From Methylocystis sp. B8 (GTDB lineage Bacteria; Pseudomonadota; Alphaproteobacteria; Rhizobiales; Beijerinckiaceae): DNA of 64,000 nt. Below, in pieces: positions 7,877 through 28,754 of this stretch. Both the position numbers and the translations under genes were made by a program. The stretch spans positions 248,001-312,000 of the forward strand of contig NZ_VBTZ01000003.1 of NCBI RefSeq assembly GCF_005771425.1, read 5' to 3'. Below the pieces are notes generated by a model. That model had not been told where the DNA came from. It searched no databases and was given only the letters and a program-made list of their open reading frames with translations. The stretch's first letter is position 1, and each line of letters begins with the position of its first letter.

Positions 7877-8101
7877 TCTATGCTCCAGTTCCGGATCAGC
7901 GCGCCGCCGTGGGGCGGACGGTCTTTTCGCTGGCAAGCATATAGTCGAGCGAAAGCTTCGCGATCAATGGACGATTTGAGTCTTGGAAGCCGCTGAGTTC
8001 TAAAAGCGCGACCACAGCCCGCGACCGCTTAGGTGAATAGTTCGATCGAGTTGGGTCGAAATGACTAGGCTCCCAGCGGATGACCCACCAAGGGACGACG
8101 C

Positions 8102-8890: not shown

Positions 8891-8893
8891 CGC

Positions 8894-10273: not shown

Positions 10274-10433
10274 CGGTTGACCTCATACGACCCATTCAGG
10301 CTAAGCCGCCTAAGCGAACATGTCACTTTGCGCCCGTAAGGTTTTCCCCAGCGCCTATACAAACCATGGCCTTTGCGCGCCAGCCGCATATACTAGCTCA
10401 GTCAGAGTTTGTTTTTGTTGCGCCACGGAGCCG

Positions 10434-11324
10434 ATGTCAGCCCTTACCGCCGACCCAGAAACTCTGATACGCGCTCTTCCGCTTTGGCGTGGGCCGATCG
10501 ATATTGCGCCATTGCTCGGCGGCATCACGAACAAAAATTATATCGTAACGGATGGCGATCGGAAGGTCGTCATTCGTCTTGGCGGCGACATCCCCGTTCA
10601 CGGGGTCATGCGCTTCAACGAGCTCGCGGCGAGCAAGGCTGCGGGAGCGGCCGGCGTTTCGCCGAAAGTTCTTTGCGCCGCGCCCATGGCGATGGCGCTT
10701 GAATATGTTCCCGGCCAAACCTATGAGCCGGAGGACGTGCGGAAGAACCGCAGGCGCTGTGTCGATCTTGTCAAGCGCGTTCATCGCGAGGTCGCGCAGC
10801 ATTTACGCGGGCCGACCCTCGCTTTCAATGTCTTTCATATCATCCGCGACTACGCTCACACGCTCGTCGAGGATCGAAGCCGAATATCGCAACAATTGCC
10901 CGGCCTGCTCGCGGCGAGCGAAATTCTGGAAACGGCCACTGGCCCAATCGATCTTGTTTTCGGCCACAATGATCTCCTCGCCGCCAATTTCATCGACGAC
11001 GGGCAGCGCCTCTGGCTCGTCGATTGGGACTATGCGGGTTGGAACACGCCGCTGTTCGATCTTGGCGGACTTTCTTCGAACAATGGTTTCGACGCCGCCG
11101 AGGATGAGGCGCTGCTCGAAGACTATTTCGAAGTTGCGCCCACGGACGTGCTGCGCCGCCGTTTCAAGGCGATGCTCTGCGCCTCGCTCTTGCGCGAGGC
11201 GTTGTGGAGTTTTGTCTCGGAAAGTCGATCGGCGATCGATTTCGACTACGTCGCTTACTCTGATCAAAACATGTTGCGCTTCGATGACGCCTGGGCGGCG
11301 TTCCGGCAGATGGAAAAAGCATGA
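10434..11324 (+). CDS. Choline/ethanolamine kinase-like phosphotransferase
   Basis: 296 residues from ATG 10434 (GGAG upstream); the ORF extends upstream to 10320 but that part lacks family similarity. It has the protein-kinase-like APH/choline kinase fold: an N-lobe with GGITNKNYIV, the catalytic Brenner motif FGHNDLLAANFI, and the metal-binding DWDYAG followed by PLFDLGGLSSN. That combination is typical of choline kinase and LicA-type proteins. It could phosphorylate choline, ethanolamine or a related amino alcohol; the divergent eutBC genes make ethanolamine attractive. The stop codon overlaps the start of the dehydrogenase by 4 bases (ATGA), showing translational coupling. Confidence 0.85.
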   Translation: MSALTADPETLIRALPLWRGPIDIAPLLGGITNKNYIVTDGDRKVVIRLGGDIPVHGVMRFNELAASKAAGAAGVSPKVLCAAPMAMALEYVPGQTYEPEDVRKNRRRCVDLVKRVHREVAQHLRGPTLAFNVFHIIRDYAHTLVEDRSRISQQLPGLLAASEILETATGPIDLVFGHNDLLAANFIDDGQRLWLVDWDYAGWNTPLFDLGGLSSNNGFDAAEDEALLEDYFEVAPTDVLRRRFKAMLCASLLREALWSFVSESRSAIDFDYVAYSDQNMLRFDDAWAAFRQMEKA

Positions 11325-13768: not shown

Positions 13769-13777
13769 AGGTTGCGA

Positions 13778-15022
13778 CTATGCTTCGAGGTGTTGGTCCG
13801 CGCCCGCGACAGAGTCGCTGACATCGCGCGGCGTCTTAAACGTCGCGATGGTTTCTTGAACGGCGTCGAGCGCGAGATCGAGGTCGTCTTGAGAAATGAC
13901 GAAAGGCGGGGCCAGGCGAACGACCGTGTCATGAGTCGAGGTCGTCAGCACGCCCTTGGCGATCAAACCTTCGCATACGTCTCGCGCGTTGGCGTAGCGT
14001 GGGTCCATCTCGACGCCCGCCCATAGTCCCCGCCCGCGAACGTCTTTGATCGCGGGCATGCGCATCCCGTGCAGGCGTTGCATCATTCTCGCGCCAAGCT
14101 CTTTACTGCGCTCAACCAGCCGCTCGTCACGAATGACGTGAAGCGCTTCGAGCCCGATGGCGGCGGCGAGAGCGTTGCCGCCGAAGGTCGATCCATGCGA
14201 ACCCGGCGTGAACACGTCCATCACTTCGCGTTTCGCCACGAAGGCGGAAACCGGCAACACCCCGCCGCCGAGCGCCTTTCCAAGCGTGACGCCGTCGGGA
14301 ACGATATTTTCATGCTGGAAGGCGAACCATGTCCCGCTACGTCCCAGCCCGGATTGGACCTCGTCGAGCAGCAGCAAAATTCCGCGCTTGTCGCACAGTC
14401 GGCGCAACCCAGCGAGCCAACCATCGGGCGGCACGATAACGCCTGCCTCGCCCTGGATCGGCTCTACGAGAATGGCGGCAGTGTTTGGGGTAACGGCGGC
14501 TTCGAACGCCGCGAGATCGCCAAATGGCGCTGCGCGAAACCCCGGCGTGAAAGGGCCAAATCCGTCCCGATACTCGTTCTTGGAAGAGAAGCTGATGATC
14601 GTCGTTGTGCGGCCGTGAAAGTTGCCTTCGGCGACGATGATCTCTGGATTGGCGATCCCTTTTACTCGGTTGCCCCAGCGACGCGCCGCTTTGATCGCCG
14701 TCTCTACGGCCTCCGCGCCGGTGTTCATCGGCAGGGCGACGTCGAGCCCCGTCAGATCACAGAGTTCCTCGAGGAACGAGGCAAGGCGGTCATTGCAAAA
14801 AGCGCGGGAAGGCACGGCGAGCCGTTGCGCCTGCTCCGTGAGTACTGAAAGAATTCGCGGGTGAGCGTGACCGAGGCTGACAGCGGAATAGGCGCTCATC
14901 ATATCGATGTACCGCCGACCTTCCACATCCCACAGATAGGCTCCCTGTCCGCGCGTAAGCATGACGGGCAGGGGATCGTAGTTCCGAGCGACGTGTGGGT
15001 TCCTGAACTCCGAGCTGTCCAT
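13778..15022 (-). CDS. rocD: Class III aminotransferase, ornithine (RocD)-type
   Basis: 414 residues from ATG 15022; the ORF continues to 15301 but that part overlaps the divergent gene. Conserved ornithine aminotransferase segments are YLWDVEGRRYIDMMSAYSAV, MNTGAEAVETAIKAARRWG, LLLDEVQSGLGRSG, and TLGKALGGG with the PLP lysine. It is by sequence an ornithine-oxo-acid transaminase. Because it is divergent from an aminoadipate-semialdehyde dehydrogenase gene and a 2-oxoadipate dioxygenase, it may also (or instead) remove the epsilon-amino group of lysine; that is an inference from context. It converges on the dehydrogenase at 13768 with 9 bases between stops. Confidence 0.9.
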   Translation of the reverse strand: MDSSEFRNPHVARNYDPLPVMLTRGQGAYLWDVEGRRYIDMMSAYSAVSLGHAHPRILSVLTEQAQRLAVPSRAFCNDRLASFLEELCDLTGLDVALPMNTGAEAVETAIKAARRWGNRVKGIANPEIIVAEGNFHGRTTTIISFSSKNEYRDGFGPFTPGFRAAPFGDLAAFEAAVTPNTAAILVEPIQGEAGVIVPPDGWLAGLRRLCDKRGILLLLDEVQSGLGRSGTWFAFQHENIVPDGVTLGKALGGGVLPVSAFVAKREVMDVFTPGSHGSTFGGNALAAAIGLEALHVIRDERLVERSKELGARMMQRLHGMRMPAIKDVRGRGLWAGVEMDPRYANARDVCEGLIAKGVLTTSTHDTVVRLAPPFVISQDDLDLALDAVQETIATFKTPRDVSDSVAGADQHLEA

Positions 15023-15058
15023 ATCCGAGAGCTTTTTGCGCGCATCCGCATTAGATTG

Positions 15059-15089
15059 ATGCGTGCACGCATTTGCGTGATTATGCATA
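15059..15089. promoter_or_regulatory. Candidate operator: 14-bp and 8-bp palindromes between divergent genes
   Basis: ATGCGTGCACGCAT at 15059-15072 is a perfect palindrome, and TATGCATA at 15082-15089 is a second one centred about 20 bases away. Both lie in the 127-base gap between the divergent rocD-like and amaB-like genes. The TGCGTG half-site recurs at 15074-15079. The arrangement fits a shared regulator binding on both sides of a divergent promoter; the regulator is not in the window. Confidence 0.45.
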
Positions 15090-15149
15090 CATAGGCGGAT
15101 GCAACGACGGCGCCAGCCGCGTAAGCATAGGTGAACAACGGGAGTTGAA

Positions 15150-16688
15150 ATGGAGGCGCGCGTTCTGCAGGCCGAAATTGCCGCTGAAACCGCGGCTCTT
15201 CTCCCTTTTTTCGGGTTGGAATCGCAGACGTTTGAGAACGGGTCGCTGACGACGCGTTCGCCGATCACTGGCGAAACAATTGCGCGGGTCGAGAGCGCCA
15301 ATTCGGGGATGGTTCAGCAGACCATCGCACGCGCCGAGGATGCGTTTCGCGTCTGGCGCAACATTCCAGCGCCGCGCCGAGGCGAATTCGTGCGCTTGCT
15401 GGGAGAAGAGCTGCGAGCGGCCAAGGCCGAGCTCGCGCGTCTTGTCACGATCGAGGCTGGCAAGATTACAACGGAGGGTCTCGGTGAAGTCCAGGAGATG
15501 ATCGACATCTGCGACTTCGCTGTAGGTCTGTCGCGTCAACTTCACGGACTGACGATCGCCACCGAACGCCGTGGTCACAGGATGATGGAGACCTGGCGCC
15601 CGCTCGGCGTCACGGGCGCGATCACAAGCTTCAATTTTCCCGTGGCCGTCTGGGCCTGGAACGCGGCGCTTGCTCTCGTTTGCGGAAATTCGCTCATCTG
15701 GAAGCCTTCGGAAAAGACTCCGCTTGTTGCGCTCGCGACCCAAGCGTTGGTCGAACGGGTCGCTAAGCGTTTCGACGATGCGCCGGAAGGGCTCTCAAAT
15801 CTGCTCATCGGCGGCCGTGAAATCGGCGAAGCGCTTGTCGAAGATGCGCGGGTTCAACTCGTTTCCGCGACAGGTTCGACGGCGATGGGCCGCGCTGTCG
15901 CGCCGCGCCTCGCGCGTCGCTTTGCAAAGTCTATCCTGGAGCTTGGCGGCAACAATGCCGCTGTCGTTTGCGCCTCAGCGTCTCTCGATCTTGCCGTTCG
16001 CGCAATCGCCTTCGCTGCGATGGGCACGGCGGGCCAGCGGTGCACCACGTTGCGTCGGCTGATCGTCCATGAAGACGTCTATGAAGAGCTTCTCGGCCGA
16101 TTGCGGCGCGCCTACGCCTCAGTTCCGGTCGGCGATCCCCGAGACGGCGCCTCACTCGTTGGCCCGCTCATCGACCAAAGCGCCTATACGGCCATGTGCG
16201 GCGCGCTCGATGAAGCGCGCGGCGCAGGGGGCGTGATTCAGGGCGGCGAACGCGTGCGTGCTGAATTATATCCTGACGCCTTTTACGTGCGCCCTGCGCT
16301 GGTGGAAATGCCGGGCCAAACGGAAGTCGTGCGGCGGGAAACATTTGCCCCGATCCTCTACGTGCTGAAGTTCCGCAGTCTCGACGAAGCGATCCAGCTG
16401 AATAACGATGTTGCTCAGGGCCTCGCGTCGTCAATCTTCACGTCGCGCCTGGATGAGGCCGAACGGTTCATGGCCGCCGACGGATCGGATTGCGGAATCG
16501 TGAACGTGAATATCGGACCGTCCGGCGCTGAAATCGGCGGCGCCTTCGGAGGCGAGAAGGATACGGGCGGCGGCCGCGAAGCGGGCTCCGACTGCTGGAA
16601 GGCCTACATGCGCCGCGCCACCAATACGATCAATTATTCGGGCGAACTGCCGCTGGCGCAAGGCGTTAAATTCGATTTGGAGACTTAG
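15150..16688 (+). CDS. amaB: Aldehyde dehydrogenase, alpha-aminoadipate semialdehyde (P6C) type
   Basis: 512 residues of the ALDH7 type. Visible motifs are the N-terminal SPITGETIARV, the cofactor-binding SFNFPVAVWAWNAAL and WKPSEKTPL, the catalytic glutamate in LELGGNNAAVV, and the nucleophile cysteine in GQRCTTLRRL. The carboxylate-recognition end GPSGAEIGGAFGGEKDTGGG is characteristic of antiquitin/AmaB (Pcd), which oxidises the semialdehyde in equilibrium with piperideine-6-carboxylate to 2-aminoadipate. It precedes a 2-oxoadipate dioxygenase gene by about 80 bases. It thus fits the middle step of lysine catabolism. Confidence 0.88.
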   Translation: MEARVLQAEIAAETAALLPFFGLESQTFENGSLTTRSPITGETIARVESANSGMVQQTIARAEDAFRVWRNIPAPRRGEFVRLLGEELRAAKAELARLVTIEAGKITTEGLGEVQEMIDICDFAVGLSRQLHGLTIATERRGHRMMETWRPLGVTGAITSFNFPVAVWAWNAALALVCGNSLIWKPSEKTPLVALATQALVERVAKRFDDAPEGLSNLLIGGREIGEALVEDARVQLVSATGSTAMGRAVAPRLARRFAKSILELGGNNAAVVCASASLDLAVRAIAFAAMGTAGQRCTTLRRLIVHEDVYEELLGRLRRAYASVPVGDPRDGASLVGPLIDQSAYTAMCGALDEARGAGGVIQGGERVRAELYPDAFYVRPALVEMPGQTEVVRRETFAPILYVLKFRSLDEAIQLNNDVAQGLASSIFTSRLDEAERFMAADGSDCGIVNVNIGPSGAEIGGAFGGEKDTGGGREAGSDCWKAYMRRATNTINYSGELPLAQGVKFDLET

Positions 16689-16766
16689 CCTCTGCTTCGT
16701 TTCGCAATGATTTTCTTGCGTGGACGAGCTACATAAGGGAACGACCATCGATCGCTCAGAGCTGCG

Positions 16767-18218
16767 ATGAACAAGTCTCTAGTTTCCGCTGACGCCATTC
16801 GGGCGATGTTCGCCTCGGCGATGTCGGACATGTATCAGGCCGAAGCGCCGCAATACTGCGCGATGAAAGCGCTCGTCGCAGACATTAATCGGCAAACGCT
16901 CGCCAACGACCCGCAGCTCGAGCGGCGCCTTGCTGAGAGCGGGGAACTCGAACGACTCGACGTCGAGCGCCACGGCGCCATACGTGTTGGGACGGCCGAG
17001 GAGCTGTCGACGCTGCGCCGACTCTTCGCGGTAATGGGCATGGCGCCCGTGGGTTACTACGACCTATCGGTTGCCGGGATTCCGGTGCATTCGACCGCAT
17101 TCCGTCCGATTGGCGAAAACGCATTGCGGGCCAGCCCATTCCGCATCTTCACCTCGCTTCTCAGACCGGATCTTATCTCTGACGTGAAAGCGCGCGAGAT
17201 CGCAACGAAGATTCTCGTTCAGCGCGATATTTTTACGCCGCGCTGTCTGGAACTGATCGATCTCTTTGAAAGACGCGGGTTCGACGATGAAGAGGCGCGC
17301 GAATTCGTCGTTGAAGCGGCGAAGACCTTCCGTTGGAACGGTCAGGCGACGGTCTCATCAAAGGTCTACCAGAAGCTCTATGCGAGGCATCCGCTGCTTG
17401 CTGATATTGTTTGCTTCAAAGGGCCGCATATCAACCATCTCACCTTGCACGCGCTCGATATCGACGGCGCGCACCACGCGATGGCGGCGCGCGGTCTGAG
17501 TCCGAAATCGATTGTCGAAGGGCCGCCGCGTCGTCGCTGTCCGATTCTCTTGCGCCAGACGAGCTTTAAGGCGCGGCCCGAGCCTGTCGAATTTATCGAG
17601 GAAGACGGCCGGCGTGTGCCAGGCGCCCACGCCGCGCGTTTCGGCGAAATCGAGCAAAGAGGCGCGGCGCTGACTGCCGAAGGACGCGCGCTTTACGACA
17701 AGCTTCTGGCTGAAACTCAGTCCGCAGTTCCACTGGCGGCAGACGGCGCCAATGCGCAGGCGTTTAACGAGGAATTGGCGCGACGCTTTACGAAATTCCC
17801 CGACGATTATGAGACTCTACGACGTGAGAAGCTCGCTTTCTTCCGCTATTCGGCCGATCCGCGCGCCAGAGCAGGGGAGCCTATGTTTCCTCTTTCATTG
17901 GACGATCTCCTGCGGACCCGGGCTCTGCGCGCTGAGCCAATCCTTTACGAGGATTTCCTGCCGGTCAGCGCCGCCGGGATCTTTCGCTCGAATCTTGGGG
18001 AGCAAGGCGGAGAAGAATTCAGTGCGGACGCCGACCGGCACGCCTTCGAGGCGGCGCTCGGCGCGCCGGTTCTCGACGAAATCGCGATCTATGAGGAAGC
18101 GGAGACGCAGTCATTGGCTGCGAGCCTCAAGGCGGTCGGCCTCGAAAGCGTCGCTTCTCTTCAACCGGCAAAATCGGCTGACGCCCATATTGGCGCGGCG
18201 GACGCCAGCCATAACTGA
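16767..18218 (+). CDS. hglS: 2-oxoadipate dioxygenase/decarboxylase (HglS/YdcJ, DUF1338)
   Basis: 483 residues, matching the DUF1338/YdcJ family. Visible conserved stretches include MALVADIN-like KALVADINRQT, GMAPVGYYDLS, the iron-site region IPVHSTAFRPI, and HINHLTLHALDID with a second metal histidine. The characterised member HglS is an Fe(II) enzyme that converts 2-oxoadipate to D-2-hydroxyglutarate in lysine breakdown. The position directly after the amaB-type gene on the same strand supports that role. It is followed after 47 bases by the threonine dehydrogenase gene. Confidence 0.88.
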   Translation: MNKSLVSADAIRAMFASAMSDMYQAEAPQYCAMKALVADINRQTLANDPQLERRLAESGELERLDVERHGAIRVGTAEELSTLRRLFAVMGMAPVGYYDLSVAGIPVHSTAFRPIGENALRASPFRIFTSLLRPDLISDVKAREIATKILVQRDIFTPRCLELIDLFERRGFDDEEAREFVVEAAKTFRWNGQATVSSKVYQKLYARHPLLADIVCFKGPHINHLTLHALDIDGAHHAMAARGLSPKSIVEGPPRRRCPILLRQTSFKARPEPVEFIEEDGRRVPGAHAARFGEIEQRGAALTAEGRALYDKLLAETQSAVPLAADGANAQAFNEELARRFTKFPDDYETLRREKLAFFRYSADPRARAGEPMFPLSLDDLLRTRALRAEPILYEDFLPVSAAGIFRSNLGEQGGEEFSADADRHAFEAALGAPVLDEIAIYEEAETQSLAASLKAVGLESVASLQPAKSADAHIGAADASHN

Positions 18219-18265
18219 GGAATAGGTCGGCGCTCAGGCGGAGCCGCCGCGTTATCGGAAGGCGC

Positions 18266-19258
18266 ATGCGAGGCATTCTCGTCACCGGCGCGCTTGGCCA
18301 GATCGGCGCCGAGCTGACGCCGGCATTACGCGAGCGATATGGCGCGACGCGCGTCGTCGCCTCGGATCTCTCCGAGGCGCAGCCAGCAGACGACTCCTAC
18401 GAGCGCCTCGACTGCGCCCAGGCGGAGGCGGTCGCCGATTTAATCGAGCGACGCGAAATTGGCGTCATTTACCACCTCGCAGCGCTTCTTTCGGCAGTCG
18501 CCGAGGAGAGGCCTCAGGCCGCCTGGAGCGTCAATATGAACGGTCTCTATAATGTGTTGGAGGCCGCCCGGCACTTTGGCTGCCAGGTATTTTTTCCAAG
18601 CTCGATTGCGGCGTTCGGTCCCTCGACGCCACGTCGTGGCACGCCGCAGGCGACAATCCAAAGGCCAACGACGATTTACGGCGTCACCAAGGTCGCTGGC
18701 GAATTGCTCTGCGACTATTACGCGATCCGTTTCGGCGTAGACGCGCGCGGGCTGCGCTTGCCAGGCCTTGTTTCTTGGGCGGCGCCGCCGGGCGGCGGCA
18801 CGACCGACTATGCCGTCGAAATGTTTCACGCCGCTGCTCGGCGCAAGCCCTACTCCTGCTTTCTCGCCGCAGAGACGCGGCTCGACATGATGTATATGCC
18901 GGACGCCGTCCGCGCCATCATCGAACTCATGGAAGCTGATCCTCAGCGTCTGCGATATCAGAATGCGTATAATGTCACCGGCATGAGCGTTACGCCGCAC
19001 GAAATTGCCGCCCAAATTCGCCAACACGTTCCGTCATTCGCCGTGGATTACCGCATCGATCCATTGCGGCAGGCGATCGCCGATTCGTGGCCGCAGTCGC
19101 TCGACTCCAGTGCGGCGCGGGAGGATTGGGGATTTAGCCCACGCTTCGATCTCGTCGCCATGACGCGGGACATGCTCGCGCGTCTTGGCGAGACGACAGG
19201 TCCATTTGAGGATCCAATTTCAAATGAGGTTGAAAATGCCAACGCACGGTTTGGCTAG
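18266..19258 (+). CDS. L-threonine 3-dehydrogenase, short-chain/epimerase type
   Basis: 330 residues, an NAD-binding extended SDR protein. The Rossmann motif is ILVTGALGQIGAEL, and the catalytic YxxxK is in TTIYGVTKVAGELL. The segments SSIAAFGPSTPR and LRLPGLVSW and the late ETRLDMMYMPDAVRAI are typical of the UDP-galactose-epimerase-like threonine dehydrogenases rather than of the zinc Tdh of E. coli. It oxidises threonine to 2-amino-3-oxobutyrate, the substrate of the KBL encoded by the next, overlapping gene. The pairing supports the call. Confidence 0.88.
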   Translation: MRGILVTGALGQIGAELTPALRERYGATRVVASDLSEAQPADDSYERLDCAQAEAVADLIERREIGVIYHLAALLSAVAEERPQAAWSVNMNGLYNVLEAARHFGCQVFFPSSIAAFGPSTPRRGTPQATIQRPTTIYGVTKVAGELLCDYYAIRFGVDARGLRLPGLVSWAAPPGGGTTDYAVEMFHAAARRKPYSCFLAAETRLDMMYMPDAVRAIIELMEADPQRLRYQNAYNVTGMSVTPHEIAAQIRQHVPSFAVDYRIDPLRQAIADSWPQSLDSSAAREDWGFSPRFDLVAMTRDMLARLGETTGPFEDPISNEVENANARFG

Positions 19259-20552
19259 GGCGCTTGCTGCGCAGCTCAATGAACTTTCGGATGCAGGGTT
19301 GCTTAAACGCGCGGAAAGCGTCCTCCGCGGAGTTATTGCGCCGCGCGACGGCTATGGTCCACGCTTTCTCATTGAAGGCGAAGGCGAAAAGCCGTTTCTG
19401 CGCATGAACGCCAATAATTATCTGGGCATGTCTTTGCGTGCAGAGGTGATTGCCGCCGAAGAAGAAGCGGCAGCGAAATTTGGCGCCGGGCCCGGCGCCG
19501 TGCGCTTCATCAGCGGAACCTGGTCGCCTCATGTTGCGCTGGAGCGTCGGCTCGCCGATTTTCACTCCCGTCCGGCTGCGATAATTTTTTCCTCCGCCTA
19601 TGCCGCGATCATGGGCCTCATCCCCCAACTTGTCGGCAAGAAGACTGCTGTCATTAGCGATGAGCTCAATCACAATTGCATCATCAATGCGATCTCTCTG
19701 GCGGCGCCTGAGGAAAAGCGAATCTACAAACATCTCGACATGGGCGAACTCGAGCGATGTCTCGACGAGGCGGCAAAATCATGCAACCGCGCCATCATCG
19801 TGACTGACGGCGTGTTCAGCATGCGGGGCGATCACGCGCCGCTGGACCGTGTCATGTTGCTGGCGCGCAGTCGCGATAACGCTTTTCGGGAGGGGGCGAT
19901 CGTCGTCGTCGATGATTCACATGGCGTTGGCGCTCTCGGGGCGACTGGGCGCGGCGCGGAAGAATATACGCATGCCGGCCCCGTCGATATTCTGGTGGCG
20001 ACGCTTGGCAAGGCTTTCGGCGTCAACGGCGGCTATGTCGTAGGCGACGAAATCCTCATTCGCTACTTGCGCGAGCGCTCGCCCTTTTACGTCTATTCTA
20101 ATCCGATCACGCCAGCCGAGGCCGCCGCGGCGCACCAAGCGATCAATGTTCTGGACAGCTCTCAGGGCCTGTCTTTGCTTAAGCATCTGCGGGCGATGAC
20201 CGCGCGCTTCAAGGCGGGGCTGATCAGGCTCGGCTTCGAGACGCTGCCCGGGGAGCATCCAGTCGTGCCGCTGGTCACGCGCGACAGCGCTCGCACATTG
20301 GCGATCGTCGCCCATTTGCGTCGCCGAGGCGTTTTAGTGACCGGCCTGACCTATCCCGTCGTGCCAAAGGGGGACGAGGAGATCCGATTCCAGATCTGCG
20401 CGGACCACACAGCCGCCGATATCGACGCCGCCCTGGAGACGTTGGCCGAGATGGCGGAGTCAAAAGCCTCGCCGCGAGCAACTGAGCTTCAGCGCTCTAT
20501 TTCTACTGTGGCGGCGCCGCCTGGTCGCTCCCAGGGAGATTCAAGGACGTGA
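19236..20552 (+). CDS. kbl: 2-amino-3-ketobutyrate CoA ligase / glycine C-acetyltransferase
   Basis: 438 residues of the alpha-oxoamine synthase family. Start 19236 is chosen because GAGGT lies 5 bases upstream; it overlaps the dehydrogenase gene by 23 bases. The PLP lysine sits in [15 protein letters not shown], and the family pattern [17 protein letters not shown] and [14 protein letters not shown] is clear. It cleaves 2-amino-3-oxobutyrate with CoA to glycine and acetyl-CoA, completing threonine degradation begun by the preceding enzyme. It is some 40 residues longer than E. coli Kbl, mainly at the C-terminus, which is low in complexity. Its stop overlaps the next gene (GTGA). Confidence 0.9.
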
Positions 20553-21871
20553 CAATGGATAGCACGCGTTATCATAAGGCCAGCATTGGCAACCGCGTGC
20601 TTCAGCCGGAAACGCTGATGTTGGGCTACGGCTACGACCCGGCGCTGTCTGAAGGGTCGGTCAAGCCGCCCGTATTTCTGACCTCAACTTTCGTGTTTCG
20701 AACGGCGGAAGACGGGCGCGACTTCTTCGACTATATGGCCGGCCGTCGTGCGCCGCCCAAAGGCGAAGAAACCGGTCTCGTCTATTCGCGCTTTAATCAT
20801 CCCAATCTAGAGATTGTCGAGGACCGTCTGGCGATCTACGAGCATGCGGAGTGCGGTCTCGTCTTTTCGTCGGGCATGTCGGCCATCGTTACGACGATTC
20901 TCGCATTCGTGCGTCCGGGAGAAACGATTTTACGCAGTCGTCCGCTCTACGGGGGAACGGAGGTTCTTATTGATAAAACTCTGGCGCCCTTCGGAATAAC
21001 TGGCGTCGGCTTCACCGACGGGCTCGATAAAGAAAACATTCGAGCGGCTGCAAAGCGAGCGATGGATATCGGGCGCATCGCACTGATTTTTATCGAGACG
21101 CCGTCCAATCCGATGAACAGCCTCGTTGATATCGCGCTCGTGAAGCGAATTGGCGATGAGATTGCGACAAGGCAAGGTTCTGAACCGATCATTTGTTGCG
21201 ACAACACGCTTCTGGGTCCCGTCTTTCAATCCCCGCTGCGTCACGGCGCTGATTTGTCGCTCTATTCACTCACCAAATATGTTGGCGGACACAGCGATCT
21301 TATCGGCGGCGCCGTCGTCGGCTCTTGCGCATATCTCAAAATAATTCGGGCGATGCGCAGCGCCATCGGCACACAGCTCGACGCGCATTCCTGCTGGATG
21401 CTCGGCCGCTCGCTCGAGACCTTGTCTTTGCGCATGAACAGGGCTGTGGAGAACGCCGGGATCATCGCGAATTTTCTCGCGGGCCATCCGAGAGTGGCGC
21501 GCGTTCACTACCCTCCACTGCTTCCGCCCGGTCATCCTCAGCGCTTGTTGATGGAGCGCCAGTCGACTTCGGCTGGCTCAACCTTCTCCTTTGAGCTCTT
21601 CGGCGGACAGGCCGAAGCCTTCGCCTTTCTCAATCGACTGCAGATCTTCAAACTCGCCGTCAGCTTGGGCGGCACCGAGTCCCTGATTTGCCACCCGGCG
21701 ACGACAGTGCATTCGGGACTGACCGAAGAGGCCCGCCAGGAGATCGGGATCACGCCGGCGCTTGTTCGCGCTTCGATTGGCATTGAACATCCAGACGATC
21801 TGATCGCCGATCTGAAGCAAGCTTTGGTTGAAAGAGCGCCGGCGCGGCTAAAAGCGGAAGCGTCACGGTAG
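20549..21871 (+). CDS. Cys/Met metabolism PLP enzyme (cystathionine gamma-synthase family)
   Basis: 440 residues. Conserved segments are [11 protein letters not shown], the substrate-binding [17 protein letters not shown], the cofactor loop [11 protein letters not shown], and the PLP lysine in [16 protein letters not shown]. The C-terminal [19 protein letters not shown] is diagnostic. Members include cystathionine gamma-synthase, methionine gamma-lyase and O-acetylhomoserine sulfhydrylase, and the motif set does not decide among them. A GTG start overlaps the kbl stop by 4 bases; ATG 6 bases later is an alternative. Placed after Tdh-Kbl, a lyase in amino acid degradation is plausible. Confidence 0.85.
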
Positions 21872-21947: not shown

Positions 21948-22280
21948 ATGAGAGTAGTCAAAGAAGTGCGAGACGACCGGACGGTTTTGAGCGTCCAGGA
22001 AGATCGTATCGATGCCCACAATTCCGGCGACCTCAAGAATGTGGTTCTGAAAACGCTCGAAGGCGGCGCGCAAAACGTGGTGATTGATCTCGCGAGAGTG
22101 CAGTTCATCGACAGCTCGGGTCTGGGCGCTCTGCTCTCCGGCTATAAGAACGCAAATTTGCGTTCCAGCGGGTTTGCTTTGGCGGGTCTACAGCCGCGCG
22201 TCAGGTCGATGTTTGAGCTGACGAGGTTGCACAGAGTTTTCGACATTTATCCAAGCCTGCAGCTGGCGCTGAGCGCCTGA
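21948..22280 (+). CDS. STAS-domain anti-sigma factor antagonist (RsbV/SpoIIAA-like)
   Basis: 110 residues, a single STAS domain. The phosphoacceptor motif FIDSSGLGALL is present; by comparison with SpoIIAA the second serine (residue 57) would be phosphorylated. ATG 21948 is preceded by GAGG. Such proteins bind and neutralise an HATPase kinase when dephosphorylated and release it when phosphorylated. The matching kinase gene follows after 22 bases and a SpoIIE-type phosphatase is encoded two genes further on, so all three partner-switching parts are present. Confidence 0.88.
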   Translation: MRVVKEVRDDRTVLSVQEDRIDAHNSGDLKNVVLKTLEGGAQNVVIDLARVQFIDSSGLGALLSGYKNANLRSSGFALAGLQPRVRSMFELTRLHRVFDIYPSLQLALSA

Positions 22281-22302
22281 ATGGGGAGGGGCGGCGATCG
22301 AA

Positions 22303-22728
22303 ATGTGCGAGACGGTGGTCAATCTGGACATCGTCGTTCCCAATCAAACGCGATATCTGCGTTTTGTTGGCGCGATCGCCGAGCAGCTCGCCAAGGAATT
22401 AGACGTTCAGGAGGATAAACGCGACACTCTCGCTTACCATTTAAATCTTGCGCTGACTGAGGCTGTCGCCAACGCGATTCAATATAGTTCCGCAGTGAAT
22501 GCGAAGGACTCAGTCCGGATCTGTCTTTCCGTCGAAGACGCCTATCTTTCTGTACGTGTTTTCGACCATGGCAGAGGCTTCGATCTCGCTGCTGTGCCGA
22601 CGCCTGACCTTGACGAGCTTCGCGAACGCGGCCGCGGCATATTCTTCATCCGTTCCGTGATGGACTCTGTCCAATATCGCAAGACGGATTCGGGGAATGT
22701 GCTCGAGATGCGCAAGAAAATCGCTTAG
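22303..22728 (+). CDS. HATPase anti-sigma regulatory kinase (RsbW/SpoIIAB-like)
   Basis: 141 residues with a GHKL ATPase fold. The N-box is ALTEAVANAIQYSS, G1 is VFDHGRGFDL, and G2 is RGRGIFFIRSVMDSV. This is the serine kinase of partner-switching systems: it phosphorylates the STAS protein or holds its target, often a sigma factor. No sigma factor is encoded nearby, so the target could be remote or a non-sigma protein. It lies between the STAS gene and the glutamate dehydrogenase, with 4 bases to the latter, so all are likely one transcript. Confidence 0.88.
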   Translation: MCETVVNLDIVVPNQTRYLRFVGAIAEQLAKELDVQEDKRDTLAYHLNLALTEAVANAIQYSSAVNAKDSVRICLSVEDAYLSVRVFDHGRGFDLAAVPTPDLDELRERGRGIFFIRSVMDSVQYRKTDSGNVLEMRKKIA

Positions 22729-22732
22729 CTGA

Positions 22733-25700
22733 TTGCCTCCCGTGCTGCACTCTCCGGAAATATTGGCGCCTGAGATACCTCGTCCCGCTGATTGGGATGC
22801 GGCGGCGGATCGCTTTCTGCGTCGCGCAAGTCGCCGAGTGGGGTTTGAGTTGCCCACCGACATGCTGCGCGCGCTGCCGAAATCCTATCGCTATCTCGTT
22901 CCCGCTGCTCGGGCCGCTCGCGATATCGCACTCATTGCGCTTAACGAAGACGCCGAGCGCGAGATCGTTGAACTTCGCCCGCTGCGTGGCCCACGACCCG
23001 GCGAGGCGGCCTACGAAATTCGGTTGATCGGCAGGAAGGAGCGCGCACTCGACGAACTCCTGCCGATGCTGCAGAACATGGGACTGCGGGTGGCGGATCA
23101 ATTACTTTTTAAGCTCAATCTCAGAGTAGGGGCGTGGTTCATACGAAGTTTTATCGTTGAACCCGCAACGTCGAGCATGGCGAGCATGGCGCGATCTCGC
23201 GCTCGACTGTTGGAGGCGCTCAAAGCAACCCTCTCAGCAAAGGTTGAGAGCGATGCCCTGAATGGTTTGGTCTTGGGCGCTCAGCTCGATTGGCGTCAAA
23301 TTGATCTCTTTCGCGCCTATTGTAACTACTATCAGCAGCTCGGCGTGAGGGTCGAGCGCGCCCGCATCTATCGCGCGCTGTTGCGCAGTCCGGCGTCCGT
23401 CGAGCTTCTATACCGCTATTTTGAAGCGCGGTTTACCCCGGATCGGGGTGGGCGCGACTCGTTCCAGACCGAGCTCGAAGTCCTTACGCCCATCAGGGCG
23501 CAACTCGTCGACGTTCTGGATAAGGTTGTCGACAGTAGCGACGATCGCATTCTGCGCGACCTCTTCAACCTCATTGACGCGACGGTGCGCACAAATTTCT
23601 ATTTCTCCGGCGATTGGGCGCGCAACTTCATTGCTCTGAAAATCAGTAGTCTGGGCGTATTCAACATGCCGCCGCCAAAGCCCATGGCGGAAATCTACGT
23701 TCACTCCCCGTCGATGGAAGGGATACATCTGCGCGGCGCGAAGGTTGCGCGCGGCGGCGTTCGCTGGTCGGACAGACCAGAGGACTTTCGCAGCGAAATA
23801 CTCGCGTTGATGCAAACGCAGATGATCAAGAACGCTCTCATTGTGCCGCAGGGCGCAAAGGGCGGCTTTGTTCTGAAACTATCTTATGCGGACGTAGCGC
23901 AGCGACAGCGACTGGGCGAAGAAGCCTATTGCCAGTTTCTGCACGGTCTTCTCGATCTCACCGACAATTTGAAGCATACAAAAATCGTTCGGCCTCCCGA
24001 GCTCGTTGCTTACGATGACGCCGATCCTTATCTCGTCGTCGCGGCCGACAAGGGCACGGCCACCTGGGCTGACATCGCCAACCAAATATCCCAGTCGTAC
24101 GGCTTCTGGCTCGGCGACGCCTTCGCCAGTGGCGGCGCGCATGGCTATCACCACAAGCGATTGGGCATTACTGCGCGCGGCGCTTGGGTCTGCGTCAGGC
24201 GCCACTTTCGCGAACTCGGTCGCAACATAGATGCCGAGCCATTCACCGTGGTCGGAGTGGGCTCTATGGATGGCGATGTCTTCGGCAATGGAATGTTGCA
24301 TACGCGAAACATTAGGTTGCTTGGCGCCTTTGACGGTCAGTACATTTTTCTGGATCCGAACCCTGATCCGCTGGCGTCCTTCGGCGAGCGGCGCCGCCTG
24401 TTTGAACTGCCGCAGTCGACATGGCGCGACTACAACCCAGCGTTAATCTCTCAAGGCGGAGGCGTTTATCGGCGCGACGCCAAGGATATCTCGCTAAGTC
24501 CAGAGGTGCGGGCCTGGCTCGGCGTGCGGCATAGCACGACGGATGGCGAAGCGCTTGTTCGCTGGCTTTTAACGGCGCCCGTTGACCTTTTGTGGATGGG
24601 CGGCGTTGGCACTTACGTCAAGGCGAGTTCAGAGACGAATGAGAGCGTCGGCGATCGCGTCAACGACGACGCCCGCGTTGATGCGCTGCAGCTTCGCGCC
24701 AAAGTCGTCGGGGAGGGCGCTAACCTCGCGTTCACCCAACGGGCGCGCATCGAATATGCGTTGAAGGGCGGCCGCATCAACACTGATGCGGTCGACAATT
24801 CGGCCGGCGTCGATCTCTCTGATCACGAAGTGAATTTGAAAACATTGCTGCGTGCGCGGCCGGATGAAAACGCGCCAAAACTTAATGACGCCAACGGTCT
24901 TCTCGAATCTCTGACCGAGGAAGTTTGTGCGTCCGTATTGCAGGACAATGACCAACAGAGTCTTTGCCTGTCGTTGGATCGTGTGCGTTGTCGCGTCAAT
25001 TTGGATCCATTTATGGATCTTGCCGAACAACTGGAGAACGCTGGCTATATCAATGCGTCGGCAGAAGCGTTTCCCACGCGCAAGGACGTATCTGCCCGCG
25101 AGACGAAGGAATTGACGCGGCCGGAACTCGCTTTGCTCATGGCGAATTCGAAGCTCGCGCTGAAGCAGAGGCTGCTCGAAGACGAATCCTTCCTGCAAGG
25201 ATCCTGGGCCAATGATTTTCTCGCCAGCTATTTTCCTGAGTATGTGCGGTCGCATTTTCCAGAGCAGGTCAGAAGCCATTCGCTCGCACGGGAAATTGCC
25301 GTCACGGTGATATGCAACAAGGTGATCGATGAGGCCGGCGTTCGTTTTCTTCTGCTCGGCGAGGGATTGATTCCCACTCTATTGAGCTACGCCGTGAAAC
25401 TCTATCTCTCCTTTGATGAAATTTTTGAGGGCGATAGATGGCGTGCAGCCTTTCGCGCACGGAACGATTTAGAGGCCGCGCGCGAGTATGGTCTGTTCCT
25501 CCAGCTCCAAGACGCTTTGGCCTACATGTGTCACTGGGCTATGCGGCGCGGATATCGCCTGAGTCCAGACGATGAGGAGATCGAGCAGTGGCGTTCCGAT
25601 CTCCGTAACTATCGTGAGCGCCTTGAGGCAGGCGAACCCAATCGCGAGCAGTCCCTGGAGGAGCCCTATTTCGATCGGCTGGGAAATTTTCCGTTCCTTG

Positions 25701-26152
25701 TCGCGCTCACCCGCGAGTCTGGAGAGGACATGCGCGTGGCTGGCGCTTATTTCGATCAGGCCGCGAATCTTTTCGGATTGCAGAAGCTCACCGTCTTTTT
25801 AGAGGATGTGAAGCCAAGAGACCGCTGGGAGCAGCAGTTGCAGTCCGCGCTTGATGCGCGGATGAGGGATGCGTCCGCACGCATTGCGTCTATGCAATTG
25901 CTCAACGGGGTCAGCGACGCTCGAACATTGTTCCGTAACGTTGGCCTTGAATTTCGTCTTGCTGGGCTTGAGCGGCTGGCGTTCAAACTCGAAGCCGCGC
26001 CATTTACGACGCTGACGCCTATCGCGGCCTTCGTCGCCGAGTTGAACGCGCTTGTTGACGCATGCGACGCCGCCTACCGCAACCATTCCGGCGAGGGCGC
26101 GGAGGGAGCGCGAAACGGCCGGCGCATCTCGGCGCAAGCAGGAGCTTCGTAG
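22733..26152 (+). CDS. NAD-specific glutamate dehydrogenase, short form of the large class
   Basis: 1139 residues from TTG 22733 (a GTG at 22742 is possible). The catalytic region shows GIHLRGAKVARGGVRWSDR, NALIVPQGAKGGFVLK with the active-site lysine, VVGVGSMDGDVFGNGML, and GRINTDAVDNSAGVDLSDHE. These are unmistakable for NAD-dependent Gdh2. Most alphaproteobacterial members have about 1600 residues with an N-terminal ACT-like regulatory half; here roughly 450 residues of it are missing and the size resembles the 115-kDa subgroup. It oxidises glutamate to 2-oxoglutarate. It is embedded in a partner-switching operon, suggesting regulation by protein interaction, which is speculation. Confidence 0.92.
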   Translation: MPPVLHSPEILAPEIPRPADWDAAADRFLRRASRRVGFELPTDMLRALPKSYRYLVPAARAARDIALIALNEDAEREIVELRPLRGPRPGEAAYEIRLIGRKERALDELLPMLQNMGLRVADQLLFKLNLRVGAWFIRSFIVEPATSSMASMARSRARLLEALKATLSAKVESDALNGLVLGAQLDWRQIDLFRAYCNYYQQLGVRVERARIYRALLRSPASVELLYRYFEARFTPDRGGRDSFQTELEVLTPIRAQLVDVLDKVVDSSDDRILRDLFNLIDATVRTNFYFSGDWARNFIALKISSLGVFNMPPPKPMAEIYVHSPSMEGIHLRGAKVARGGVRWSDRPEDFRSEILALMQTQMIKNALIVPQGAKGGFVLKLSYADVAQRQRLGEEAYCQFLHGLLDLTDNLKHTKIVRPPELVAYDDADPYLVVAADKGTATWADIANQISQSYGFWLGDAFASGGAHGYHHKRLGITARGAWVCVRRHFRELGRNIDAEPFTVVGVGSMDGDVFGNGMLHTRNIRLLGAFDGQYIFLDPNPDPLASFGERRRLFELPQSTWRDYNPALISQGGGVYRRDAKDISLSPEVRAWLGVRHSTTDGEALVRWLLTAPVDLLWMGGVGTYVKASSETNESVGDRVNDDARVDALQLRAKVVGEGANLAFTQRARIEYALKGGRINTDAVDNSAGVDLSDHEVNLKTLLRARPDENAPKLNDANGLLESLTEEVCASVLQDNDQQSLCLSLDRVRCRVNLDPFMDLAEQLENAGYINASAEAFPTRKDVSARETKELTRPELALLMANSKLALKQRLLEDESFLQGSWANDFLASYFPEYVRSHFPEQVRSHSLAREIAVTVICNKVIDEAGVRFLLLGEGLIPTLLSYAVKLYLSFDEIFEGDRWRAAFRARNDLEAAREYGLFLQLQDALAYMCHWAMRRGYRLSPDDEEIEQWRSDLRNYRERLEAGEPNREQSLEEPYFDRLGNFPFLVALTRESGEDMRVAGAYFDQAANLFGLQKLTVFLEDVKPRDRWEQQLQSALDARMRDASARIASMQLLNGVSDARTLFRNVGLEFRLAGLERLAFKLEAAPFTTLTPIAAFVAELNALVDACDAAYRNHSGEGAEGARNGRRISAQAGAS

Positions 26153-26156
26153 CGCG

Positions 26157-28754
26157 ATGGAAACGCTCGCCGCAGATCGCGCTATTCTCGACGCTTTCGA
26201 TGAGGCGCTTTGCGTGCTGGAGTCCTCAGGCGCCATACGATCGATGAACCACGCCGCCGAGCGTTTGACGGGCTATTTCGAGAGCGAGCTGCGCGGACGG
26301 TCGTTCTTTTCACAACTTGTCGCGCACGACGGCGGCAACTGCGAACCTTCGTGGCCAACGCATGCCCGCGAGCGGTTGTCCTTGCGTATTCGGCGCAAGG
26401 ACAAAACGATGCTCGACGTGCGCTGCGAGATTGATCCGCTTGCTGGCGACGGCGGCGGCTCGCTACTCAAACTACGTACGGTCGACGAAGGACTGAGCGA
26501 GACGGACGCGCTCGAAGACATCAAGGAAAAGCTCGAAACAATCTTCGGCGGCATGGTCGGGGGTCTCGTGGTGATTAACGAGGCCGGCGATATTTTGCTT
26601 TTCAGCAAGGGCGCGGAGAGACTCTTTGGCTACCGCGCCGATGAAACGCTCGGAAGAAACGTTAAAATGTTAATGCCTTCGCCCTATCGCGAGGCGCATG
26701 ACAGCTATCTCGCCGCCTATAGGGAAACCGGGGTCAAAAAGATCATCGGCGTCGGCCGCGAAGTCATGGGGCGGCGAAAGAACGGCACAACCTTTCCGAT
26801 GTATCTGTCGATCGGCGAAATTTGGCTCAAAGGAAAGCGCTATTTCGTCGGCGTGACCTATAATCTGACCCGGCTTAAACGCGCTGAGGATCAGCTGCTG
26901 ACGCTTTCCGCCGCCGTCGACCAAAGTCCGATCGCGGTGATGATCACCAATAAGGATGGCGAAATTGAGTATGTGAATAGTCGCTTCGCGACCCTTACCG
27001 GTTATCCGCCGCATGAACTCATCGGCCAAAACCCGCGCATGCTGCAATCAAAGCGGACCGAGAACGACCAGTATCGGCGCCTTTGGGAAAGCATTCACGC
27101 CGGCGTCGAATGGCGCGGACAGATTCAGGATCGCAGAAAGGACGGCAAGCTTTATTGGGCCTCGGAAATCATTTCGCCGCTGCGCGACGCGAATGGCGAG
27201 ATTACCCATTACCTTGCGATCCAACAGGACATCACCGAACAGAAGCGCGACAAGGAGGCGCTGTTTGAGAGCGAGCAGCGCTTCCGGCAGATCGCCGACA
27301 TGGCCGGCGAATGGCTGTGGGAGCAGGATAAAGACGGCCGCTACACATACAGCAGCAGCGCGGTTGAGGACGTGTTGGGGATGACGCCCCAAGAGGTCCT
27401 CGGCAAAAGCTATGTTGATCTCTTTGCTAAGGAGCCTGCAAGCGACGCCGTCGCGAACAAGGGGCGGAGCTCCATCGCTTCGCGCCGGCCGTTCCACCGG
27501 GTCGTGAACCACTACCGCCATAAGAACGGCGGCGACGTCTATACCGAATCGACCGGGGCGCCGGTTTTCGACGAAGGCGGCCGGCTCGTCAAATGGCGCG
27601 GCGTCGACCACGACATGACGGCGCGCAAAAAGTTCGAGGATGAGCTGCGCGTGCGCAACCGCGCCGTCGAAGCCGTCCCCATCGGCATCGCCATTTGGGA
27701 TGCGCAGGCGCCGGGCGTTCCCAACATCTATGTCAATCCGGCGCTGAGCCGGATTACCGGTTTCAGCCGCGAGGAGCTCCTCGGACACAGCCTGCATCTA
27801 TTGCGCGGGCCGGAGACGGACCCAGCGGCGCTCGAAGAAGTCCGCGCCGCCATCCTCGAGCGCCGAAGCTGTCAGGTGACGGTGAAATTCTACCGCAAGG
27901 ACGGCTCCCCTTTCTGGGACGAACTCCTCATCTCGCCGGTCGCCAATGAGGCGGGACGAATCACCCATTTCGTCAGCGTTCACGCCGACATTTCCGATCG
28001 GCGCCGCGTCGAAGAGAGTCGTCACGAACTCGAAATCGCCAAACACATTCAGCTGTCGCTGTTGCCGAGCGCGCCGCTGCGCACGCCGCATATGGAGGTC
28101 GCTGGAATCTGCGTGCCGGCGACGCATGTCGGCGGCGACTATTTCGACTATTTCGAGAATTCCGGCGTGGCCGACATCGTCATCGCCGACGTTTCCGGCC
28201 ATAGCGTCGGCGCCGCGCTGATCATGACCGAAGTGCGCAGCACGCTGCGCGCCGAGACGCGACGCGCGACCAACGGCCTCAGCGGGCCGGCGGAGCTGTT
28301 GCGCGACCTCAACGCGCTGCTGCATGAGGATTTGTTTGCAGCGGATCTTTTCATCACCATGTTCTATTGCCGCTTCCTGCCGCAGACGCGCATGCTGCAA
28401 TACGCCAACGCCGGCCAGAATCCGCCGCTGCTGTTGCGCGCCGGGCGCTCGGACTGCGTGCAGCTTGACGCCGATGGTCTGGTGCTCGGCGTCAAGCGCG
28501 ACGTCGTTTTCGAGGAGCGCAGCGTCGAACTCGCGCCAGGCGACAAATTGATGCTCTACACCGATGGAATCACCGAGAGGCAAAATCGCCAGGGCGAATT
28601 CTTCGGACTCGAACGCCTTGGCGCCGCGTTCAGGCAGTATCGCGATCTGCCGCCTGAAGCGCTCATCAGAGCGGTGCTCGCCGACGTGCGCGCCTTCCGC
28701 GGCGCAGCGCCCGCAACGGACGACGTCGCTATGGTGGTGATGGAAGTGCGCTGA
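26157..28754 (+). CDS. Multi-PAS SpoIIE/RsbU-type PP2C phosphatase with FixL-like and LOV-like PAS domains
   Basis: 865 residues from ATG 26157, 4 bases after the dehydrogenase stop; the ORF runs further upstream but within that gene. Five PAS domains precede a C-terminal phosphatase (about 620-865) with the catalytic aspartates in GGDYFDYF, IADVSGHSVGAAL, YTDGITE and ATDDVAMV. PAS2 (about 125-238) matches the FixL haem PAS: MLMPSPYREAHDSY has the proximal histidine position (H181) and IIGVGR places R201 20 residues later, as in FixL. PAS5 (about 500-615) resembles LOV (RGPETDPAALEEVRAAI, RKDGSPFWDELLISPV), but leucine 546 stands where the flavin-adduct cysteine would be. The phosphatase would dephosphorylate the STAS protein encoded upstream. 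Confidence 0.9.
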   Translation: METLAADRAILDAFDEALCVLESSGAIRSMNHAAERLTGYFESELRGRSFFSQLVAHDGGNCEPSWPTHARERLSLRIRRKDKTMLDVRCEIDPLAGDGGGSLLKLRTVDEGLSETDALEDIKEKLETIFGGMVGGLVVINEAGDILLFSKGAERLFGYRADETLGRNVKMLMPSPYREAHDSYLAAYRETGVKKIIGVGREVMGRRKNGTTFPMYLSIGEIWLKGKRYFVGVTYNLTRLKRAEDQLLTLSAAVDQSPIAVMITNKDGEIEYVNSRFATLTGYPPHELIGQNPRMLQSKRTENDQYRRLWESIHAGVEWRGQIQDRRKDGKLYWASEIISPLRDANGEITHYLAIQQDITEQKRDKEALFESEQRFRQIADMAGEWLWEQDKDGRYTYSSSAVEDVLGMTPQEVLGKSYVDLFAKEPASDAVANKGRSSIASRRPFHRVVNHYRHKNGGDVYTESTGAPVFDEGGRLVKWRGVDHDMTARKKFEDELRVRNRAVEAVPIGIAIWDAQAPGVPNIYVNPALSRITGFSREELLGHSLHLLRGPETDPAALEEVRAAILERRSCQVTVKFYRKDGSPFWDELLISPVANEAGRITHFVSVHADISDRRRVEESRHELEIAKHIQLSLLPSAPLRTPHMEVAGICVPATHVGGDYFDYFENSGVADIVIADVSGHSVGAALIMTEVRSTLRAETRRATNGLSGPAELLRDLNALLHEDLFAADLFITMFYCRFLPQTRMLQYANAGQNPPLLLRAGRSDCVQLDADGLVLGVKRDVVFEERSVELAPGDKLMLYTDGITERQNRQGEFFGLERLGAAFRQYRDLPPEALIRAVLADVRAFRGAAPATDDVAMVVMEVR

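Follow-up and report, generated by a model that had tools for sequence, protein, structure and literature searches.

A STAS, HATPase, glutamate dehydrogenase and SpoIIE gene module of methanotrophs as a candidate oxygen-responsive partner switch

The window analyzed here is a stretch of 64,000 nucleotides from Methylocystis sp. B8 (contig NZ_VBTZ01000003.1, positions 248,001 to 312,000; positions below are counted from its first letter), and it carries a module in which genes for a STAS-domain antagonist, a HATPase-type kinase, a large-type NAD-glutamate dehydrogenase (GDH) and a SpoIIE-type phosphatase follow one another. In the searches made, no GDH-linked module turned up outside methanotroph groups, a point absent from the preliminary description of this DNA. 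The components are known; neither their combination nor the restriction to methanotrophs was found described in the literature searched. We read the module as an oxygen-responsive partner switch with the co-encoded GDH as effector, and give this reading a probability of roughly 0.45. GDH was taken as the effector because it lies adjacent to the switch genes across two bacterial classes, because the genes were probably transferred together, and because GDH and HATPase coincide in the methanotrophs of the family that were checked.

Organization of the module in Methylocystis sp. B8

The four genes all lie on the forward strand with intergenic gaps of 22, 4 and 4 bases (STAS/HATPase, HATPase/GDH and GDH/SpoIIE; Table 1), which bears out the gene set, the single strand and the spacing of 4-22 bases that the preliminary description had given for positions 21948-28754. 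The mechanical open reading frame (ORF) of the phosphatase starts at 26052, upstream of the ATG at 26157. In the 3.41-Mb genome, the SpoIIE (PF07228) protein was present as a single copy, the only PF05088 (Bac_GDH_CD) protein was the module GDH, and the window HATPase gave the strongest match to PF13581 (HATPase_c_2). A sigma factor had been said to be absent nearby, and the 20 window ORFs run against Pfam, which lie between 6152 and 34345, indeed included none, the rest of the genome not having been searched for sigma factors. Promoter and terminator site counts were no higher than in shuffled sequence.

Table 1. Features of the module and of the region upstream of it in the window
Feature	Position	Strand	Evidence
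STAS-domain antagonist (RsbV/SpoIIAA-like)	21948..22280	+	PF01740 E 1.2e-20; TIGR00377 77.3 bits (cut-off 53.45)
HATPase_c_2 kinase/anchor (RsbW/SpoIIAB-like) with intact N and G boxes	22303..22728	+	PF13581 E 4.2e-26
Large-type NAD-glutamate dehydrogenase, 1139 amino acids from TTG start	22733..26152	+	PF05088 E 1.4e-214, 713.6 bits
SpoIIE-type (PPM) phosphatase, five PAS domains, ATG start	26157..28754	+	PF07228 E 2.4e-52; five PAS stretches
PAS2 of the phosphatase, FixL haem type (fragment searched)	26490..26920	+	FixL 2cmn E 2e-31; DosP/EcDos also matched
Upstream amino-acid catabolism genes	15150..21871	+	L-piperidine-6-carboxylate dehydrogenase, HglS, NAD-dependent epimerase/dehydratase-like, Kbl/BioF-like, Cys/Met pyridoxal phosphate enzyme

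The STAS protein carries the phosphorylation motif DSSG at residues 55-58, with the phosphorylatable serine that partner-switching systems require, and the N- and G-box residues of a HATPase-type kinase are conserved in the HATPase protein. In an alignment of 93 STAS/HATPase rows, which leaves out the second copy L057 described below, both serines of the motif were kept in all 93 rows and the aspartate in 92, and the 73 GDH-linked rows all (73/73) retained the serines together with the HATPase box residues. The module shares its three protein classes, STAS with DSSG, HATPase_c_2 and SpoIIE-type phosphatase, all with their motifs intact, with the SpoIIAA/SpoIIAB/SpoIIE and RsbV/RsbW/RsbU systems of Bacillus. 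Unlike the Bacillus systems, the window module has a metabolic enzyme between kinase and phosphatase and shows no sigma factor in the 20 neighbouring ORFs scanned, and its HATPase falls far below the cut-offs of both the RsbW and the SpoIIAB model (45.8 bits with the RsbW model NF003144, cut-off 145). Partner switches are best known for releasing sigma factors.

Conservation of the gene order

A search of the genus revealed the HATPase in 30 of 39 genomes, and three of the nine without it (G035, G036 and G037) are more than 90% complete. At all 30 loci, one per genome, the HATPase gene was flanked by STAS and GDH; the STAS match ended 12-35 bases upstream and the GDH match began 4-163 bases downstream, and SpoIIE was next in line in 18 of the 20 longer stretches. 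The remaining two stretches were L056, taken up below, and L059, which adjoins L042 and gave no match. A collection of named loci, of which the best 80 of 174 candidates were kept (L070-L149), shares genomes with the genus set and with the Methylococcales set described below. The four-gene order was found at 18/18 named Methylocystis-type loci, the second copy L083 included, with SpoIIE downstream in all of them, and GDH was located downstream of the HATPase at 48 of the 53 other named loci (one from a Beijerinckiaceae metagenome-assembled genome (MAG), USCalpha; the others carry Methylococcales labels or are MAGs with loose labels), three of which could not be scored while two had no GDH within the stretch. 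Conservation of the order in other genomes, which the preliminary description had named as one thing to look for, was therefore observed, and its opposite, a GDH inserted between the regulatory genes in this strain only, was rejected by the recurrence in the genus and in a second class, which also marks the arrangement as no product of chance. The remaining nine named loci are Geobacter-like (L138, L139, L141-L143, L145, L146, L148 and L149); their order is SpoIIE-STAS-HATPase, and GDH was seen downstream at none of them (eight without it, one that could not be scored).

The HATPase was also detected in 108 of 201 genomes of the order of Methylovulum miyakonense (G972). We read 110 Methylococcales loci, of which 80 were retrieved and 30 came with short flanks; they belong to 107 genomes, and two partial matches in G1102 were left out. 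STAS lay at most 250 bases upstream of the HATPase at 106 of the 110 loci and GDH lay downstream at 85 (84 with STAS seen), its start at most 700 bases away in 68 and 720-1947 bases away in 17, most of these distant starts being due to an N-terminal extension of the enzyme. Where no GDH was seen, a locus was counted as lacking it when at least 4 kb downstream had been read, which applied to 17 loci, and was set aside when 3.7 kb or less had been read, which applied to eight. In G998, GDH and HATPase share a contig but are about 16 kb apart, and in G996 they are on different contigs. At two loci, L206 and L208, the Methylocystis pattern recurs, with a same-strand SpoIIE phosphatase after GDH.

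A flank control was carried out on 96 gammaproteobacterial loci bearing the STAS-HATPase-GDH triad with distinct HATPase DNA (six repeats dropped), comparing the 1.5-kb neighbours with tblastn at 1e-6. Protein homology was detected in 110 of 3741 locus pairs before STAS (87 loci, 46 clusters) and in 67 of 2701 pairs after GDH (74 loci, 47 clusters). The triad was thus kept as its neighbours changed; since the loci had been picked for having it, they inform on the flanks only, and the retention of GDH is 85/102.

Confinement to methanotroph groups

In a draw of 199 genomes of the family, pmoA (PF02461) was present in 20, and these 20 included every one of the nine genomes whose HATPase match was of module strength (E 3.6e-61 or better), the two counts apparently coming from the same draw, as its size and handles are equal. 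No module-strength HATPase was obtained from the 179 pmoA-negative genomes, five of which gave weak matches of 4e-17 to 3e-20. G036 and G037, near-complete genomes of the same genus that were negative for the HATPase, also had no pmoA. Of the 12 pmoA-positive genomes of the genera g40 and g42, the latter of which may be Methylosinus, 11 had neither GDH nor HATPase and one had both; the sole exception to this coincidence in the methanotroph genomes of the family that were checked was G035, where part of a GDH gene lay at the edge of a contig and the HATPase was not found. These presence and absence counts are non-independent, the genomes being related.

In wider draws, the HATPase was recovered only from the window's own genome in a class draw (1/385, E 1e-20), from two genomes of the same genus in a phylum draw (2/398, E 1e-18), and from three genomes in a draw of Gammaproteobacteria (3/369, E 1e-22), all three of which were also in the Methylococcales search. 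Outside methanotroph groups, the kinase was seen only in Geobacter-like bacteria, without GDH, among the best 80 of 174 loci. Of 50 genomes queried from the 66 loci L084-L149, 38 contained pmoA, and the 12 negative ones comprised four Geobacter-like genomes and eight others (MAGs or isolates), six of which (G963, G964, G966, G969, G975 and G994) belong to the Methylococcales draw. Carriage of the module on plasmids was rejected, as none of 72,556 PLSDB plasmid records yielded the HATPase at 1e-10; 38 records had a GDH match at 1e-30.

Phylogeny and probable transfer of the cassette

The 34 module GDHs formed one clade (SH-aLRT 100) against 13 GDH180s from four bacterial classes; GDH180s from a plasmid collection (Caballeronia, Aeromonas, Azospirillum, Qipengyuania, Nocardia and Nonomuraea) had been added. 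In a 95-row GDH tree, the 15 Methylocystis module rows grouped as a single clade (100) nested in the gammaproteobacterial module GDHs, with the Methylococcaceae-type rows L206, L208, L089, L090, L094, L216, L220 and L088 as neighbours, and 15 GDH180 rows from other Alphaproteobacteria formed a separate clade. In the tree of STAS and HATPase (93 rows), the 14 Methylocystis rows also made a single clade (100/100), at the matching position among Methylococcaceae-type rows. In this tree and in that of the 34 module GDHs, the nearest gammaproteobacterial sister row is unsure (supports 80-83). Since the Methylocystis copies are nested within gammaproteobacterial ones, the cassette was probably transferred between the classes; read most simply, the trees have the Methylocystis lineage receiving it from a Methylococcaceae-like donor. 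Rows without GDH were scattered through the STAS and HATPase tree, which suggests repeated loss of GDH from module loci.

Transfer also bears on neutral linkage, in which the four-gene operon is inherited and passed on as a block with the switch and GDH functionally unconnected. Although the apparent inter-class transfer and the second four-gene copies at L055/L083 and L057 would preserve the order by themselves, the flanks are scrambled among the gammaproteobacterial loci that keep the triad, and GDH without HATPase was not found in the methanotroph genomes checked, the G035 fragment excepted; we consider neutral linkage very improbable.

The glutamate dehydrogenase

Residues 45-912 of the window GDH aligned to residues 502-1381 of Mycobacterium smegmatis GDH180 (PDB 7a1d, E 1.5e-206), and the best Foldseek match of an AlphaFold2 model built from 28 sequences (predicted local distance difference test score 79.9, predicted template modelling score 0.70) was again this enzyme, with a template modelling score of 0.75-0.79 over the query. 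The two share catalytic core and fold (PDB 7a1d/7jsr/9hv0) at about 35% identity. Besides PF05088, Pfam reported partial ACT3, HM3 and GDH_C domains, the C-terminal part being a diverged GDH_C domain. The full N terminus of GDH180 is not present in the window enzyme, from which the ACT1/HM1/HM2 region is missing. The label "short" in the preliminary description thus holds for this N-terminal region, but the enzyme is of the GDH180 type with its catalytic core intact. Among 26 positions of the active-site region, particular ones of which we take to be catalytic, 23 were invariant in 41 module rows (14 alphaproteobacterial and 27 gammaproteobacterial, L057 left out), and variation was seen at position 440 in one row, at 618 in ten (D/E) and at 660 in five (G/A). 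The possibility that the window GDH is a pseudo-enzyme was rejected, as the motifs of the active-site region are intact. Mycobacterial GDH is controlled by the phospho-switch protein GarA.

Some other module GDHs, which with the window enzyme stand as a clade apart from the GDH180s compared, have kept the N-terminal region. When 11 Methylococcales GDH ORFs with distant starts were checked, ten turned out to be 1564-1595 amino acids long (L218, L223, L224, L226, L228, L232, L233, L239, L251 and L253) and one 1370 amino acids; domains were checked in L224, which matched ACT1, HM1, HM2, ACT3, HM3 and the catalytic and C-terminal models. The long ORFs are interspersed with short ones in the tree, and the N-terminal region was therefore probably lost several times among the module lineages.

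The sensor of the phosphatase

The phosphatase joins its PF07228 domain to a sensor part of five PAS domains, as expected of a partner-switching phosphatase. The haem-ligand histidine of the second domain (PAS2), located in an AHDSY segment, aligned to that of FixL. From 56 phosphatases collected, the window protein included and some genomes present twice, 47 had an alignable PAS2, and the histidine was present in 46 of them (four being weak alignments of 23-28% identity), the remaining alignment stopping short of the position. Where FixL has its arginine, Q is found in seven Methylocystis rows, and five gammaproteobacterial rows carry T, V or I; the output is a SpoIIE phosphatase, not the histidine kinase of FixL.

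The preliminary description had called the sensor haem-PAS/LOV-like and proposed oxygen or light as the signal. The photoactive cysteine of LOV domains lies in a motif of the GxNCRFLQ type; a pattern search detected this motif in none of the 56 phosphatase proteins, and the equivalent window segments read GQNPRML and GHSLHLL. Light sensing through a LOV domain was rejected on this ground and the haem-type PAS was upheld, since the FixL match (E 2e-31) and the kept histidine, together with the missing LOV cysteine, support oxygen and not light. PAS2 is apparently a FixL-type haem domain with a predicted oxygen-sensing function.

Proposed mechanism and the target of the switch

Under the oxygen-responsive reading, the HATPase protein would phosphorylate the STAS protein or hold GDH as its target, keeping GDH inactive. 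On a change in oxygen sensed through the FixL-like haem PAS, the phosphatase would dephosphorylate the STAS protein, which in its unphosphorylated form would capture the HATPase; GDH would then be freed and could oxidize glutamate to 2-oxoglutarate, ammonium and NADH, and methanotrophs might in this way draw on their amino-acid reserves at times when methane oxidation is limited by changes in oxygen. We infer GDH as the bound target, and likewise whether the control is positive or negative and which way the response to oxygen goes. Because of the FixL-type PAS and the catabolism genes found upstream in part of Methylocystis, oxygen-linked use of glutamate and amino acids is the likely physiology. 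A bolder statement, tentative and at somewhat short of even odds, is that the switch directly toggles a central metabolic enzyme post-translationally in response to oxygen, essentially in methanotrophs only, that it was passed as one cassette between Gamma- and Alphaproteobacteria, and that a GDH180 which lost ACT1/HM1/HM2 in the majority of lineages has come under the control of STAS or HATPase binding.

Several observations weigh against GDH as the effector. GDH was missing downstream of the HATPase at 17 of the 102 determinable Methylococcales loci, and no GDH match at E 1e-30 was obtained in the HATPase-bearing genomes G966 and G968 (MAGs, possibly incomplete) or in any of the four Geobacter-like genomes checked (4/4), so the switch can serve another target. 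When positions at least 88% alike in GDH-linked rows and less than 60% in the others were sought, GDH-linked and GDH-less rows could be told apart only by position 108 of the HATPase and position 101 of the STAS protein, and with a single position in each, a GDH-specific interface is not apparent. Among 730 ORFs having matches, none joined GDH to the HATPase or the STAS protein, and a SpoIIE gene was seen near GDH in a minority only of the gammaproteobacterial loci. Eight pmoA-positive genomes of g42 have neither the HATPase nor a GDH match, which shows that the module is not required for methanotrophy. Two second four-gene copies, at L055/L083 (Methylocystis sp. H62) and at L057 (G019), add to these points: the STAS of the former is split over two frames, and at L057 the STAS motif reads DSPR and the GDH motifs are altered. 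Such features suggest decay or a new role for the second copies, and for the L057 GDH, with its changed ADKGT and GDVFGN motifs, a pseudo-enzyme is plausible.

Some of these observations would be accounted for if GDH were a co-transcribed passenger or output, the switch having its partner encoded at another place in the genome (a cyclase, a transcription regulator, or a sigma or anti-sigma factor) and the abundance of GDH, not its activity, following. The GDH-less Methylococcales loci, the two genomes without any GDH match, the Geobacter-like loci, the scatter of GDH-less STAS-HATPase rows through the tree and the lack of a visible GDH-specific interface on HATPase or STAS all agree with a passenger role, as does the mention, in the main text of a review of STAS-only proteins, of several systems with unknown targets (PMC8256260); the words "dehydrogenase" and "metabolic enzyme" are absent from that main text. 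What a passenger role leaves unexplained is that GDH has stayed beside the HATPase in two classes while both flanks change and the phosphatase moves. We regard it as a serious possibility, though a doubtful one.

Comparison with SiaABCD raises a further option. According to PMC8457831, the phosphatase and the kinase of SiaABCD in Pseudomonas aeruginosa set the phosphorylation state of the small protein SiaC, which in its unphosphorylated form binds SiaD directly, an enzyme of the same system thus being controlled much as is proposed here. The SiaABCD effector is a diguanylate cyclase, unlike the GDH of the module, and the module phosphatase reaches 51.6 bits with the SiaA model against a cut-off of 700, which places the module outside SiaABCD. 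By analogy with the activation of SiaD by SiaC, the unphosphorylated STAS protein, rather than the HATPase, might bind and activate GDH, and the position of STAS close upstream at 106/110 Methylococcales HATPase loci would suit such a role; however, SiaC was set beside the module STAS by role and not by sequence comparison, the SiaA model score is low, and STAS is kept at loci without GDH too. Activation of GDH by the STAS protein is in our judgement unlikely.

Literature and significance

In literature searched at title and abstract level, with most subscription journals outside the coverage, no description of a STAS-HATPase-GDH(-SpoIIE) system was found among the papers listed, and the same coverage contained nothing linking partner switching with methanotrophs or a methanotroph GDH with an anti-sigma factor. 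A conserved, transferable unit that places an enzyme beside a presumed switch offers a directly testable case of partner switching over metabolism. If the oxygen-responsive reading were true, methanotrophs would gain an oxygen-linked valve on the oxidation of glutamate and amino acids, with a bearing on their survival at oxic-anoxic interfaces and on methane-based biotechnology.

Neighbouring genes and minor observations

Genes for amine and amino-acid catabolism occupy positions 6152-21871 of the window, among them a thiamine pyrophosphate enzyme, EutB, a choline-kinase-like protein, ornithine aminotransferase, piperidine-6-carboxylate dehydrogenase, HglS and an FAD/GCV_T enzyme of the dimethylglycine/sarcosine dehydrogenase type. 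The set directly upstream of the module (Table 1) is a possible source of glutamate; it was present whole or in part in L070-L082 and not in L083-L087, that is, in part of Methylocystis only. A general tie of the module to lysine catabolism was rejected, as only L088 among L088-L149 had a piperidine-6-carboxylate dehydrogenase-like gene in its stretch.

On the other side of the module, several Methylocystis carry a patatin-like gene after that of the phosphatase (L087, 16414-17361, PF01734; L086, 16554-17513, by a similar ORF start), and a gene resembling that of L087 also comes after the second copies at L055/L083 and L057. At L056 (G002:C3), HATPase and SpoIIE were found without detectable STAS or GDH beside transposase-looking ORFs, as a relic or a rewired copy. 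In the GDH-less loci L093, L227 and L235, an M3-family peptidase occupies the slot after the HATPase (PF01432 in L093, similar ORF starts in the others).

The USCalpha MAG (L092, G203:C6) has its module GDH spread over several reading frames, either by a real break or by an assembly error, and its HATPase is truncated by the contig start. L089 comes from a record titled as a Methyloversatilis universalis MAG, a name that is probably wrong, since the GDH of this locus clusters with the Methylocaldum one and the genome (G964) is part of the Methylococcales draw. The GDH of the Methylocystis SC2 papers (BN69_0999) may differ from the module GDH: if G013 is SC2, the module lies near 2.83 Mb, and gene 999 would be expected near 1.0 Mb.

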